The notes under the pieces: generated by a model
Databases searched by the model: none
The model's input: only the letters and a program-made list of their open reading frames with translations
What the model was told of the DNA's origin: nothing
Shown here: one piece after another, positions 3,386 through 60,786 of the stretch
How the letters are laid out: each line of letters opens with the position of its first letter
Position numbering within the stretch: the first letter of the stretch is position 1
Translations under genes and position numbers: made by a program
From: Sphingopyxis sp. QXT-31
GTDB taxonomy: Bacteria > Pseudomonadota > Alphaproteobacteria > Sphingomonadales > Sphingomonadaceae
Length of the DNA stretch: 64,000 bases
Reading direction: 5' to 3'
Assembly (NCBI RefSeq): GCF_001984035.1
Contig: NZ_CP019449.1
Location: forward strand, 2,604,001 to 2,668,000

Positions 3386-3790
3386 TCACATCCCCCCCGG
3401 AGCGGCCACCACGGGTGCCAATGCGATGCGGGCGATCGTGAAGATGCCGAAGGCGCCGCCCCCGATCGCGTAGAAATTCAACAAGACGAGCGCGAGCAGG
3501 CGCGTCGCCTCGCCATGGACATAGTCCTCGATCAGCACCTGGAGCCCGAGGCGCAGGTGCCAGAAGACGCTGACGACGAGCAGGATCAGCGCGAAGGCGA
3601 CCATCGGGTTCGCGGCCCAGCGCGACACCGCGCCATGGTCTCCGAGCGGCAGGCGAAGCAGCGAAGCGATAAGGAAGCCGACGAGCAGCAGATTGCCGAG
3701 CGCCGAGAGCCGCTGTTGCAGCCAGTGGTGCGAACCATGCTGCGCCGAGCCGAGCCCGCGGACCTTGCCGAGGTGGGTGCCATTACCCAT
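3386..3790 (-). CDS. sdhD: succinate dehydrogenase membrane anchor subunit
   Basis: A 134-residue integral membrane protein with three hydrophobic helices (roughly residues 30-47, 62-82, 97-125). It contains a conserved [15 protein letters not shown] segment; the His-Leu-Arg-Leu-Gly pattern corresponds to the haem b ligand region of SdhD. It anchors the flavoprotein and iron-sulfur subunits and forms part of the ubiquinone site. It overlaps the end of sdhC by eight bases and is one base from sdhA, which is typical of a sdhCDA transcript. Confidence 0.92.
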
Positions 3791-6493: not shown

Positions 6494-6618
6494 GGCAAAA
6501 TTCGCAGAGCTAGTTAACGCCGAATTTACCCCTTCCCCACATAGATCGGTCATGATTTTCGCCGGTGACAGCGGACGGCAGCGCCGCGCGCCACGAACAT
6601 GGTGAGGGAAGCAGGATC

Positions 6619-7971
6619 ATGGTGAAGGAAAATCCGATTCATAAGCAGCAGATCGATCCGATTTCGATGTCGGAGCGCTTTCCCTTCTATGACCTCGACG
6701 GCCGGCTCGCCGCCGACGGCGCCGAAATCTATCAGATCATCGCGGGGCGCGAGGAAGCGATCGCGCGCGCCTATTGGGACGTGTTCAACGAATTGCCCTC
6801 GGTCGATCGCCGCGTCGAGGGCGACCTCTACGACAGCTATGTCCGCGGCAGCGCGCACCACAGCGCGGTCAAATATCGCGACGCCGCCGGCCAGGAGGTC
6901 GCCACCATCGCGTGCCAGAACACACATATGGCGCGGCGCGTGAACCTGCCGCTCGCGTCGGTGCTGTCGTGCATGGCCGAAAGCCAGCGGCTGACCTTCG
7001 AATATATCGCCGAGGCGTGCCGCGGCGACGAGGCGCGGCTGGTCCGGCTGCAAAGTGCGCTGAACCGGCTCGGTTTGCTCGAATATGACATCATGCAGCG
7101 TTATGCCGAAAAGCTCGACCGTGCAGTCGTCTCTTCCGAGCGCCAGGCGCTCGCGGGCGATTTCGACCAATCGATCGCCTCGCTCGTGCAAGACACCGAC
7201 GGCGTGCGCCGCGAGCTCGCCAAGCAGGCCGCCTCGGCCGACCAGGCCGCAAAGGGCATGATCGCCAAGACGAGCGAGGTCGCCGCGGCGTCCGAACAGT
7301 CGGCGATCGCGATGCGCGAAGCCGCCTCGACCGCCGCCGGGCTGATCCGCGCGATCGAGGATGCGCGGAGCGAAGTCGAGGCCTCGGCCAGCGTCGCGAC
7401 GCGCGCTTCCGAACAGGCGGGCGAGGCGGTTGCCATGTCCGAAGCGCTGTCGCACCACGCCGAATCGATCGAGTCCATTTTGGGCCTGATCCGCGAGATC
7501 GCGGGGCAGACCAACCTGCTCGCGCTCAACGCGACGATCGAGGCCGCCCGCGCGGGCGAATCGGGCCGCGGCTTTGCCGTCGTCGCGCAGGAGGTGAAGA
7601 GCCTCGCCAACGAGACCGCGCGCGCGACCGACGACATCGCGGGCAAGATCACCGCGATCCAGCAGGCGACGCGCGGATCGGTCAGCGCCAACCAGTCGAT
7701 CCAGGCGACGATCGTCGAGGTCCAGCATTCGGCGCAGCGCATCCGCGACGCGATGGACGCGCAGGCGCAGACGGTCACCTCGATCACCGCGGCGGTCGAC
7801 GAAACCGCGCTCGCCGCCGACTCGATGTCGTCCACGATCGCCAGCATCCGAAACGATTCGGGCATGGTCGCGGGCGAGATCAGCGTGCTGAGCGAAGAAT
7901 TCTCGCGCATGGGCGAGCGGCTGCAGTCGCTCGAAAAGGCCGCGAGCGAGTTCAGCCGCCGGGTCGCCTGA
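6619..7971 (+). CDS. soluble globin-coupled methyl-accepting chemotaxis protein
   Basis: A 450-residue chemoreceptor with no membrane helix. The first ~165 residues are helical and match the globin-coupled sensor fold. His103, in [11 protein letters not shown], sits where HemAT-type proteins place the proximal haem ligand (pattern HxRxxLP). Residues ~200-440 form the long antiparallel coiled coil; the conserved signalling tip is at about 292-322 ([19 protein letters not shown] and [12 protein letters not shown]). The probable role is cytoplasmic gas (O2) or redox sensing that drives CheA. The start at 6619 follows AGGGAAGCAGGATC. No che genes are nearby, so it is an orphan receptor. Haem binding is inferred. 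Confidence 0.88.
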
Positions 7972-57255: not shown

Positions 57256-57270
57256 ATGCGCCGGCATTCC

Positions 57271-57289
57271 AAAGTTCAGTAAAGTTCAG
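57271..57289. repeat. short tandem direct repeat
   Basis: AAAGTTCAGT followed by AAAGTTCAG, 15 bases after the kynU stop. Too short to assign a role. Confidence 0.55.
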
Positions 57290-57394
57290 CCCAATGGCGA
57301 TCCCATGTCGAACCGACTTTCCGGGTAGCACGGCGGGTGCGTCGCGAGTCGAAACGGGAAGGATGTCGCTCATCGACAAGCTTGAAGCATAGCG

Positions 57395-57402
57395 ATGTTT
57401 TT
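57395..57402. repeat. target-site duplication, left copy
   Basis: ATGTTTTT, repeated exactly at 59733-59740 on the other side of the element. Confidence 0.88.
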
Positions 57403-57455
57403 GGGGCCTATATACCTGCTTGACCCAACCCGGAATCGAACCATGATGCCCGATC

Positions 57456-58238
57456 ATGAGCGGGGACGAATCGGACAAGGATAATGAGCCAGAAAAGGTG
57501 CATCCTATCTTTGCGCCGCGAGCGCCCCTGTCGCCGTTAGAGGAAGCGTTTCTCTCCACTTATCCGTCACCGGGAGTGCCGGAAGAGACGCATCGAGCTA
57601 TCCCTGAAAACCCGTTCGATGCCACAACGGAAGAGAACTTCCGGGCTTGCATCACGCCTCGCGAAGCGCTCGCTCGATACGGACTGTCACAGACGACCGC
57701 GATATTGCAGCTAAACAGGGAGCTTTCGCATGGGCGCGTTGAAGCTGTCGCGGAAGAAGTCCGCTGGGGTCCGATCAATGGGAAGTTGCTGGCGTACCCT
57801 CTTATCCCGACGTGGGTGTGGCTGCGTCACGATCTGAAGCCCGAAGATGATTTTTGGGACACGGGGTATCTCTATTCTCACTTTCCGAGCCAAGGTTATT
57901 CCGTCGTTCGCGATGGGGGTATCTCATTTTTCTATGTCCGTTTTTGGCCACACGGGCTTCCCAACGCGATTGAACCGCCGTCGGAAGCGGCTCCGGCATC
58001 AATGCCCACCGCAGCCGGAAAAGGCGGGCGGCCTCGCAAGGGATGGTGGGACGATCTTTGGATAGAGATGATACGGCGGATCGAAGCGGGCAATCTCCAC
58101 CCGACCTCAGCCGCGCAACTTCAAAAGAAGATGGAAGACTGGCTTGGGGAAAACCAGATTTACCCCGGCGATTCCACTTTGAAGCCGATGGCAAATAAGT
58201 TGTTCAAATACCTGCAAGAAAGGCAGGGGGAAACCTGA
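57456..58238 (+). CDS. transposon passenger protein of unknown function
   Basis: A 260-residue protein. N-terminal ~50 residues are acidic and proline-rich. Residues ~60-110 (ITPREALARYGLSQTTAIL and LSHGRVEAVAEEVRWG) look like a helix-turn-helix-like helical domain with a basic GGRPRKGWWDDLWIEM patch near 190 that resembles an AT-hook (GRP core). The C-terminal TSAAQLQKKMEDWLG and LKPMANKLFKYLQ is helical. It is not a known transposition or resistance gene. The combination suggests a DNA-binding or regulatory role; this is inference. No clear ribosome binding site precedes ATG 57456. Confidence 0.7.
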   Translation: MSGDESDKDNEPEKVHPIFAPRAPLSPLEEAFLSTYPSPGVPEETHRAIPENPFDATTEENFRACITPREALARYGLSQTTAILQLNRELSHGRVEAVAEEVRWGPINGKLLAYPLIPTWVWLRHDLKPEDDFWDTGYLYSHFPSQGYSVVRDGGISFFYVRFWPHGLPNAIEPPSEAAPASMPTAAGKGGRPRKGWWDDLWIEMIRRIEAGNLHPTSAAQLQKKMEDWLGENQIYPGDSTLKPMANKLFKYLQERQGET

Positions 58239-58570
58239 GTTTTCCCCCATTTCTCCCCGCTATTTTGAATATGTGTCAGACGGTCGATTACAGCGTCTCC
58301 ATAATCGCCCTATCAACCCGGAAAGCCGGGCAACCGATGGAGCATGAAGATGGGACCGTGAGATACCAGAAACGAAAAAGGCCACCCTCGCGGGTGACCT
58401 TTCGTGCCGGTGCCGAAGCGACCGATCTAAGCAATCAAACAGTCGCACAAATCGGACCCGGATGCAACCCACATCATGCGATGGAGGGACCGATGGTCTA
58501 TATCCAAGCATATTTCCGTATCAGGTTCGGGCGTGTTGAATACGTCCGCGCCCACTTCCGCACCCAGTAG
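58239..58570. other. transposon interior between passenger and small gene, no supported gene
   Basis: This stretch holds the hairpin at 58377-58402 and no credible coding sequence. A plus-strand open frame of 101 codons (58265-58570) begins with TTG, lacks an RBS and runs through that hairpin. It may serve as 3' untranslated RNA for both convergent transcripts. Confidence 0.6.
58377..58402 (-). terminator. terminator for the transposase transcript
   Basis: A 10-bp stem with one mismatch (AAAGGCCACCC and GGGTGACCTTT, loop TCGC). On the minus strand it is followed by TTC with a T run (TTTTTCG), so it stops transcripts coming from the transposase and small gene. Confidence 0.75.
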
Positions 58571-58741
58571 CTAAGGCTGCTCGGCTTCGGTTTCGTCACC
58601 TGGCCCCCGCTTCGGCGGGGGCTTTTTTCGTGTCAGCTTCACCTTGTCGGGCAGTTCCTTAGGGTCAGTCCCAATGAACCGCTCCAGCGCCTCACCAAAT
58701 GGCATATCCAGCCCGAGGGGCCGCTCGCGCTGCCCGGTCAT
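58571..58741 (-). CDS. small protein translationally coupled to the transposase
   Basis: A 56-residue basic protein. The ATG (58739-58741) overlaps the transposase stop in ATGA, so it is read from the same transcript. The middle has GEALERFIGTDPKELPDKVK, then TRKKPPPKRGPGDETEAEQP. The short helix with T-x-P-K-E-L and a Lys/Pro-rich basic tail recalls small proteins I remember beside similar transposases; I cannot name a family. The tail codons overlap a plus-strand terminator. Confidence 0.65.
   Translation of the reverse strand: MTGQRERPLGLDMPFGEALERFIGTDPKELPDKVKLTRKKPPPKRGPGDETEAEQP
58603..58628 (+). terminator. UUCG-loop terminator for the passenger transcript
   Basis: GCCCCCGC-TTCG-GCGGGGGC forms a perfect 8-bp stem with a stable tetraloop followed by TTTTTT on the plus strand. 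It would end transcripts from the passenger gene, 365 bases after its stop. It lies inside the coding sequence of the small minus-strand gene. Confidence 0.88.
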
Positions 58742-59652
58742 GCGATCAGCGCTTTGTAGGTCAAGCGGCCATGTGTCTGCGACAGGAGCGCGTTCACACG
58801 GTCGCCCTCGTCCATTGAGCGGAGATTGAAGCGCCACGTCATTTCGCCAAGGTACGCGCTAATGTGCTTCGGTGAAAGCCAATGGTGGGTGCCAATGATC
58901 TGACGCTTGAACAGCGCCCACACGCTTTCGATACCGTTGGTATGGAGGCAGTAGTTGCGGACATATTCGCCCGCCGAATGATTGACGCGGTGATGGCTGT
59001 AGTCGCGACCGAGGCCGACGAACGAACCATGCTCGTCGGTCATCAGTGCCGATCCCGGCTCTACATGATCGCGGATGGCGCTCTGGACGTTGCGGGCCGA
59101 CAGCGACGGCGTGATGCCGGTGCGAAGTTCGCCTTCGCGCTCTAGGATGCCCAGCACCGCAATCTTGCCCTTGCCGCCCTGCTTGCCCCCGGTGCGCTGC
59201 CAAGCGTGCTTGTTCTTTTCCTTGCCGCCGATGAATGTCTCGTCGGCCTCGACCTCGCCAGACAGCGGGCGATTGAACGACTGGGTACGGACGGCATGGC
59301 GAAGGCGATGGGTGACGAACCACGCGCTCTTTTGCGTGATGCCCAAATCCTTTGCCAACTGCGTGCTGGCGATGCCCTTCTTGTGCGACGTGATAAGCCA
59401 GATCGCCAGCATCCATGTGCGGAGCGGCAATTTGCTGTCTTCAAAGATGGTGCCGACACGGATCGAGAACCGCTTGCGGCAATCGCCGCACTTGTGGGTT
59501 TTACCATCCGAGAAGTGATAGACCTTGGTCGACTGGCAATGGGGGCAGAACGCGCCGTTCTTCCACCGGATAGCCCTGAAATGGTCGATTGCGGCTTGCT
59601 CGTCGGGGATGGCTTGCATCATCTGGAGCAGGCTATTGAAAGTCGTGGACAC
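58738..59652 (-). CDS. IS1595-family transposase
   Basis: A 304-residue DDE-type transposase. Zinc ribbon CPHC (36-39) and CGDC (55-58), helix-turn-helix (residues ~95-115, GIASTQLAKDLGITQKSAWF), then the catalytic core: Asp137 in EADETFIGG, Asp206 in MTDEHGSF, and an Asn239/Glu242 in HTNGIESVWALFKRQIIG, as in the ISXO2-like subgroup. GTG start at 59652 follows GGAGAACC. It overlaps the small coupled gene at its end. The frame is intact, so the element may be active. Confidence 0.93.
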   Translation of the reverse strand: MSTTFNSLLQMMQAIPDEQAAIDHFRAIRWKNGAFCPHCQSTKVYHFSDGKTHKCGDCRKRFSIRVGTIFEDSKLPLRTWMLAIWLITSHKKGIASTQLAKDLGITQKSAWFVTHRLRHAVRTQSFNRPLSGEVEADETFIGGKEKNKHAWQRTGGKQGGKGKIAVLGILEREGELRTGITPSLSARNVQSAIRDHVEPGSALMTDEHGSFVGLGRDYSHHRVNHSAGEYVRNYCLHTNGIESVWALFKRQIIGTHHWLSPKHISAYLGEMTWRFNLRSMDEGDRVNALLSQTHGRLTYKALIA

Positions 59653-59963
59653 CGCGGTTCTCCGTGTTGGTGGAACCGCTTATAGGTGTTTATGTGACCC
59701 GCGTCAATGGGTCACACAAGTATATAGGCTCAATGTTTTTTAGGAAAGAAGTTTTTCGGGGACAGCGAAATTAGGGGTGGTTGCACGCGTGACCGTAAGG
59801 GCGCGCCGTAACGGCGTCGATCAACATGATATTATTGCTTCAACTTTAGCTCTATCAAGACCTCATTATGCTCGGCATAATACTATATATATCAACAATT
59901 TAACTTAAAATTTGATAATTCCTCCGCATGTGATAATCAGAATATCTGCATGGGGGGGCAATC
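59653..59963. other. transposon right end and AT-rich intergenic stretch
   Basis: Starts with the transposase 5' leader, where GTGACCC and GGGTCAC form a hairpin at 59694-59715. The right terminal repeat ends at 59732, followed by the duplicated target site at 59733-59740. Then the DNA becomes strongly AT-rich (for example ATACTATATATATCAACAAT), with no open frame of note. It probably holds the promoter of the 59964 gene pair; no boxes are clear. Confidence 0.6.
59733..59740. repeat. target-site duplication, right copy
   Basis: ATGTTTTT, exact copy of 57395-57402. Confidence 0.88.
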
Positions 59964-60344
59964 ATGCTGTGGGATTTCATTCACTTATCTGCTAACAATG
60001 TGCCGGGGCCGTTGGTTACCGCTTCGGGAGTTGCGTCCTCGGCCGGTCGCGTGACCTTAATGAGCGACCGAGAGCTTTGGCTCACAATCGCCGTACTAAC
60101 TTTCGGAATTTTCGTAGTTCTTACGCAAGCCTATTTGATTAAGGGAGTTATACACCGGCAAACAGACTCTGTTCTCCGAATATCTCTGGTAACTTTGATA
60201 ATAGTCGGAACCCTGGCTCTAATTACGGCAGGGTTTAGCAATGATCAGATTGCACCGGCTCTTGGATTGTTTGGCACAATCGCTGGATATCTTATTGGCC
60301 GGCAAGAGAGAGGGATCTCGACTGACCAGGAAGTCGAAAAATGA
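59964..60344 (+). CDS. AT-rich two-helix membrane protein of unknown function
   Basis: A 126-residue protein with hydrophobic helices near residues 38-60 (LWLTIAVLTFGIFVVLTQAYL) and 70-112, and a short charged tail. GGGGGGG precedes the ATG as ribosome binding site. Base composition is clearly lower in G+C than the surrounding genome. Not recognised. It overlaps the next gene by four bases, so the two are co-expressed. Confidence 0.65.
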   Translation: MLWDFIHLSANNVPGPLVTASGVASSAGRVTLMSDRELWLTIAVLTFGIFVVLTQAYLIKGVIHRQTDSVLRISLVTLIIVGTLALITAGFSNDQIAPALGLFGTIAGYLIGRQERGISTDQEVEK

Positions 60345-60694
60345 GTTACGCAAGATGGCTAGCCTTGCCCCTTTCCGCACTCTCGGCGATCGCCGCAGCG
60401 CAAAGCGGCATGTGGGAAGAGCCTTCTGTTGCTCCATCACATGTTGTCATTGCAAATCTCGTGCGACAGGATTTGAATTTTTCGCTTCGTCCAAGAGACG
60501 GGGAATGGTCAAACTACACTATTCCAGCACTTGAAACATATAACTACAGCTGCAACAACTGCAGGACAGATGCATTCGAATTCATCATAACTACTAATAA
60601 TAATACAAAGAGATATTTCTTGCTTGAGAAGCACAGGTACGCAATCGACTTTAATAGGGTAGAAAATGCGTTTGATATCTACAAGGCTAGCTAG
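60341..60694 (+). CDS. AT-rich exported protein of unknown function
   Basis: A 117-residue protein with a signal sequence (MSYARWLALPLSALSAIAAAQ). The mature part is rich in Asn, Tyr and Thr, with SCNNCRTDAFEFII giving a Cys-x-x-Cys pair and repeated Asn-Thr stretches; it may be a beta-structured surface protein. Its start overlaps the previous stop in ATGA. Lowest G+C in the window. No family recognised. Confidence 0.65.
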   Translation: MSYARWLALPLSALSAIAAAQSGMWEEPSVAPSHVVIANLVRQDLNFSLRPRDGEWSNYTIPALETYNYSCNNCRTDAFEFIITTNNNTKRYFLLEKHRYAIDFNRVENAFDIYKAS

Positions 60695-60786
60695 AATATA
60701 TATTCATATCATAGGCGAAAAATTCATAAACACCTAACGCCCGATCTGCAACCTTCGTTAGCCCCAATCGCAACCACCCTCAAATT

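Follow-up and report, generated by a model that had tools for sequence, protein, structure and literature searches.

Within the 64,000 nucleotides of Sphingopyxis sp. QXT-31 analysed here (contig NZ_CP019449.1, positions 2,604,001 to 2,668,000 of the forward strand; hereafter the window), positions 57403-59732 are occupied by an intact IS1595-family transposon, whose genes and other features are the following:

57395..57402, no strand: left 8-bp target duplication ATGTTTTT, exact; two congeners with the empty site have it only once
57403..57427, plus strand: left terminal inverted repeat, agreeing with the right end at 20 of 25 positions; each of the other 16 delimited elements has a comparable end
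57433..58312, no strand: cargo segment that differs between sister elements, from DNA comparison with three sisters of the same passenger type
57456..58238, plus strand: passenger, an open frame of 260 aa without a Pfam, NCBIfam or PADLOC match
58374..58402 (approximate), minus strand: hairpin resembling a terminator, with T's following it, located downstream of the transposase and tag genes
58493..58570, plus strand: tiny frame of 25 codons, MVYIQAYFRIRFGRVEYVRAHFRTQ, directly adjoining the tag gene in tail-to-tail orientation
58571..58741, minus strand: tag gene, 56 aa, its start codon overlapping the transposase stop (ATGA)
58738..59652, minus strand: IS1595 transposase, 304 aa, GTG start, an open frame with IS1595 domains
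59708..59732, minus strand: right terminal inverted repeat, sharing 20 of 25 positions with the left end
59733..59740, no strand: right 8-bp target duplication ATGTTTTT, exact

An earlier sequence-only reading of this DNA had described an intact IS1595 transposon with a passenger, terminal repeats matching at 20 of 26 positions and an exact 8-bp flanking duplication, a description that agrees with the features above apart from the length over which the ends were compared; the tag gene and the tiny conserved frame did not figure in it. Target duplications in the IS1595 family are 8 bp long. The empty site that this reading had proposed to look for in close strains is present in two of the 80 genus genomes searched (the source genome included), each with one ATGTTTTT across the junction and with 90-91% identity to the joined flanks of the element. 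From this state of the site in the two congeners it follows that the transposon inserted at its present location, insertion being a simpler reading than precise loss in both of them. The element is thus an IS1595-family transposon that inserted into an intergenic site, duplicating ATGTTTTT. As to whether it moved recently or still moves, the past insertion is borne out; the source genome has a single copy (search at E<=0.001), which gives no support to continuing movement.

Pieces of the flanks (57260-57420 and 59741-59800, corresponding to approximately 256-305 and 361-421 of the joined flanks) recur widely in the source genome and its congeners, and because they recur at so many places the insertion site looks like a dispersed intergenic repeat. 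The right flank from 59800 to 60700, with two small genes of unknown function (59964-60344 and 60341-60694), has no match in the two empty-site congeners, in which similarity to this flank stops approximately 57 bases past the junction.

The family assignment rests on an ISXO2-like DDE domain (DDE_Tnp_IS1595, PF12762, E 3.6e-41) combined with an N-terminal zinc ribbon (Zn_ribbon_IS1595, PF12760, E 2.3e-12), on a score of 203.7 bits against the NCBIfam IS1595 transposase model NF033547 (cut-off 75), on the 8-bp duplication and on the recurrence of the ends. Searching with the transposase gives matches in 38 of the 397 genomes of the bacterial family at E<=1e-60 and in 2 of the 385 class genomes at E<=1e-80; both counts include the source genome. 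Among the 23 related loci examined (own included), both ends were found in 17, delimiting elements of 2.0-3.0 kb, so that the ends do recur in related genomes as the sequence-only reading had asked; the other six comprise a short contig (L089), three truncated transposases (L050, L102, L103) and two distant relatives (L051, L052). An exact 8-bp duplication flanks 11 of the 17 delimited elements, own included, and was not found at the remaining six (L047, L093, L098, L099, L100, L101), of which L101 is flanked immediately at both ends by an exact 9-base repeat. Given these 11 elements, the ends and the duplication of the window element are not a matter of chance. We count as one lineage the 19 intact elements, own included, whose transposases are at least 60% identical, L023 and L045 being the same element and counted once. 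As judged by comparing their sequences, this lineage is modular: the transposase is followed by a tag frame at its stop and then by cargo which differs between relatives and extends to the left end.

A second frame with the conserved tag lies at or just after the transposase stop in 19/19 intact close elements (a count that leaves out three truncated relatives), and in 18 of them its start codon overlaps this stop. It opens with a DMPFDEALERF-like stretch, such as LDMPFDEALERF..TDPKE, and constitutes either a free small protein of 55-63 aa (9/19) or the N-terminus of a protein of 181-443 aa (10/19). Between standalone tags (n=8, 28 pairs) mean pN is 0.26 and mean pS 0.72, and since pN is below pS in all 28 pairs the tag is kept as a protein. 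Eight tag-fused proteins were run against Pfam, the runs covering cargo proteins other than those of L096, L099, L073 and L077: Bro-N was found in six (L093, L094, L095, L098, L100, L135) and P63C in L092, while the protein of L101 had no Pfam match. The tag-fused Bro-N proteins of L094 (7058-8047) and L095 (7055-8386) also match the PADLOC phage-defence candidate PDC-S13, with E 4.4e-118 and 2.3e-110, respectively.

Beside more distant transposases (35-45% identical, n=18) a second, IEPIDASFDEVAKAM-like tag type, whose frame starts 5 bases before the transposase stop, was found in nine cases and a tag was absent in the other nine. Eight proteins with this second stretch, one of them from a sample of the phylum, were compared with Pfam, and four contain P63C; from their pattern we would guess that the two tag stretches may be related. 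In the phylum sample of 30 loci a script found a frame for 20, the own element and L146 having the first tag type, L137 the second and L156 a doubtful one, and it found no frame at the other 10. Its absence from many distant and phylum-sample loci means that the tag is no general feature of IS1595 elements. Both as a free protein and as a fusion to Bro-N, P63C or other cargo, it probably acts as a short stretch for docking or regulation that is synthesised in step with the transposase, although this role is more weakly grounded than the rest.

The extent of the cargo segment is apparent from comparison with the three sisters carrying the same passenger type. They are 77-79% identical to the window element in DNA from near the right end (from element position 105 in the case of L045) to approximately position 1420, where the similarity stops, resuming only in the last 25-72 bases. 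The passengers of L045 and L087 resemble that of the window element over residues 49-169, the passenger of L090 over residues 169-255, and because the two parts match different sisters the halves of the passenger seem to have been exchanged too. Cargo of other sisters includes a SocA/Panacea antitoxin-like gene and a DNA methyltransferase, and the cargo proteins of L047, L088, L091 and L097 have no Pfam match. The tiny frame recurs as a pattern in 5/17 delimited elements, namely all four of the window's passenger type and L088; a 101-aa frame containing it matches phrog_21154 (E 4.8e-7) over the tiny-frame residues. For the hairpin, 61 surrounding bases of the minus strand fold with -29.3 kcal/mol, and, by eye, sister elements have a comparable hairpin-like stretch in which bases differ. 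A genome from a different family within the class has five IS1595 matches in its contig 1 (L139 is one of them), and at the one locus read a KilA-N gene starts 10 bases past the position of the transposase stop.

For the passenger itself, searches of Pfam and NCBIfam (up to E 1) and of PADLOC (up to E 0.01) found nothing, and PHROGs gave a sole match, at E 0.3. Its AlphaFold2 model (mean pLDDT 83.7, pTM 0.55) contains two confidently predicted stretches, at residues ~55-165 and 195-258. A search with the single sequence returned 15 other proteins, and a profile recognised at least 35 among the 7996 scored candidates sharing most words.

The passenger profile matches in 23 of 396 genomes of the order, including the source genome and that of the sister element L045; the remaining 21 genomes hold 22 passenger-family loci outside IS1595 elements. 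At 15 of these 22 a tyrosine integrase on the same strand stands immediately upstream of the frame or overlaps it, as assigned by similarity to a panel and confirmed by Pfam in all five of the proteins submitted; the start of the stop-to-stop frame is no more than 90 bases from the integrase match, or the two overlap, in 14 of the 15. An Arm-DNA-bind_3 domain stands at the integrase place in 14/15, the contig ending inside the integrase at the fifteenth (L166). The expected adjacency to this domain is approximately 0.16% per gene (118 matches in 22 genomes, ~74 Mb), a rate which rests on an estimated gene number (1 gene per kb, rounded genome sizes) and on genomes chosen for holding a passenger relative. 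The binomial probability of 15/22 is then 1.8e-37, a figure that treats the loci as independent, which related genomes are not. Of the other loci, two (L056, L173) have the passenger relative following an MmeI-like gene, upstream of which, no further than ~2.1 kb away and on the same strand, lies an Arm-DNA-bind_3 match; in two (L167, L174) the relative and a neighbouring small Phage_integrase gene are transcribed divergently; at L179 an integrase-like gene lies 0.8 kb downstream; and at L053 and L175 no integrase is found directly beside it.

Two further loci extend the picture, L002, where the relative follows a serine resolvase by a few bases, and L003, where it follows an integrase and two passenger-family genes stand in tandem. 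In the class, four of 289 genomes match the passenger family, own included, adding three loci: L253, from the same bacterial family as the window, where the relative overlaps an integrase; L254, with no recombinase by it; and L252. In the islands of L046, L054, L167 and L179 the passenger relatives are accompanied by an HTH_17-like protein (Pfam in L046 and L179) and by an integrase-like protein of 362-366 aa (Pfam in L167 and L179), and in L046 and L179 a type I restriction-like gene, read from the start of its translation, comes next.

At L252, in another family of the class, the passenger relative resides in a different IS1595 element, the transposase of which is 35% identical to that of the window. 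The ends of this element (3494-3518 and 6611-6635) pair at 22 of 25 positions, and an exact 8-bp duplication, GGCTGAAT, read by eye, lies directly outside both. Only 23 bases separate the passenger start codon from one element end, and the transposase converges on the passenger as it does in the window element. That the same arrangement occurs in two distant IS1595 lineages argues against chance hitchhiking.

Genome context thus shows that the passenger family, which is small, adjoins recombinases of three chemistries, these being many tyrosine integrases, one serine resolvase and two distant IS1595 DDE lineages. The passenger is most likely a DNA-binding accessory factor of the mobile element, which could control how the recombinase is expressed, in which direction recombination runs or how the recombinase assembles at the ends. 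The statement of the sequence-only reading that the passenger is not a known transposition gene holds, yet most of its relatives outside IS1595 elements adjoin recombinase genes, and the favoured reading has become that it takes part in DNA mobility. Since sisters with other cargo have exact duplications too, the passenger is not strictly needed for transposition in this lineage. For the joint reading, in which an IS1595 transposon of a modular, tagged lineage carries a DNA-binding accessory factor and the tag is a docking or regulatory stretch, we would give a probability of roughly 0.55.

A possible, if less probable, alternative is that the passenger is cargo of an ordinary kind, such as a gene for defence or counter-defence, and that adjacency to integrases simply reflects where cargo enters islands. 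The sister elements with their PDC-S13-matching Bro-N proteins, SocA/Panacea antitoxin-like gene and DNA methyltransferase, as well as the two relatives that follow MmeI-like restriction genes, would fit such a view; however, the passenger has no match in PADLOC at the threshold given above, and the tight spacing at 14 of the 15 integrase-linked loci and behind the resolvase of L002 looks like a recombinase operon. That the element should be a plain IS1595 transporter IS, with a hitchhiking passenger devoid of a present role and decaying by drift, we consider improbable. The sister passengers are indeed very divergent (pN 0.46-0.52 and pS near 0.8 in three pairs, from alignments that include non-matching C-terminal parts), but pN is below pS in 3/3 pairs, neither the window copy nor any of its three sisters of this type has an interrupted frame, and members of the family can be recognised both in two distant IS1595 lineages and beside integrases. 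Hardly credible, finally, is a toxin-antitoxin or addiction pair formed by the passenger and the tiny frame and stabilising the element: although all four delimited elements with the window's passenger type have the tiny frame, it also accompanies another cargo (L088), a pattern search did not find it at 24 other passenger-family loci, and no toxin family was matched in Pfam, NCBIfam or PADLOC. To the accessory-factor reading we would add a broader and rather doubtful proposal, namely that the passenger family is a portable partner of tyrosine, serine and DDE recombinases alike, while the translation-coupled tag tethers or regulates whatever cargo follows the transposase; such a partner might, for example, organise DNA ends through an N-terminal DNA-binding domain combined with an exchangeable C-terminal domain.

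Excisionases and other recombination directionality factors are encoded next to integrases; of the passenger relatives outside IS1595 elements, 15 of 22 stand directly behind an integrase, and the window copy resides in a DDE transposon. The passenger shows no sequence match to excisionases, and it appears to differ from them in an extra C-terminal part of at least two types and in its occurrence in DDE transposons. Proteins with Bro-N, P63C or KilA-N, which we take to be phage antirepressor-like, are carried by sister or more distant IS1595 elements, whereas the window passenger matches none of these domains in Pfam. An accessory protein usually serves a single recombinase chemistry. Passenger-carrying IS1595 elements are themselves known under the name of 'transporter IS', credited to Siguier et al. 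2009 in PMC3129680 and PMC8496243, and the argument that a passenger is of interest because most elements of the family are single-gene is accordingly weak. Such elements resemble those described here in transposase family, in 8-bp duplications and in the presence of passengers; as far as those two texts describe them, the present lineage stands apart by its tag frame, which is either free or fused to cargo, and by a passenger family that also occurs with integrases. Neither the tag nor the passenger family was found described in the literature searched on IS1595 elements, ISNwi1, P63C, KilA-N, PDC-S13 and excisionases, and these two components appear to be new.

The occurrence of the tag as a free protein or as a fusion suggests a route by which small transposons could capture and control cargo. 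Likewise, if the passenger family is common to tyrosine integrases, a serine resolvase and DDE transposons, it would represent a shared handle on the control of mobile-element movement.
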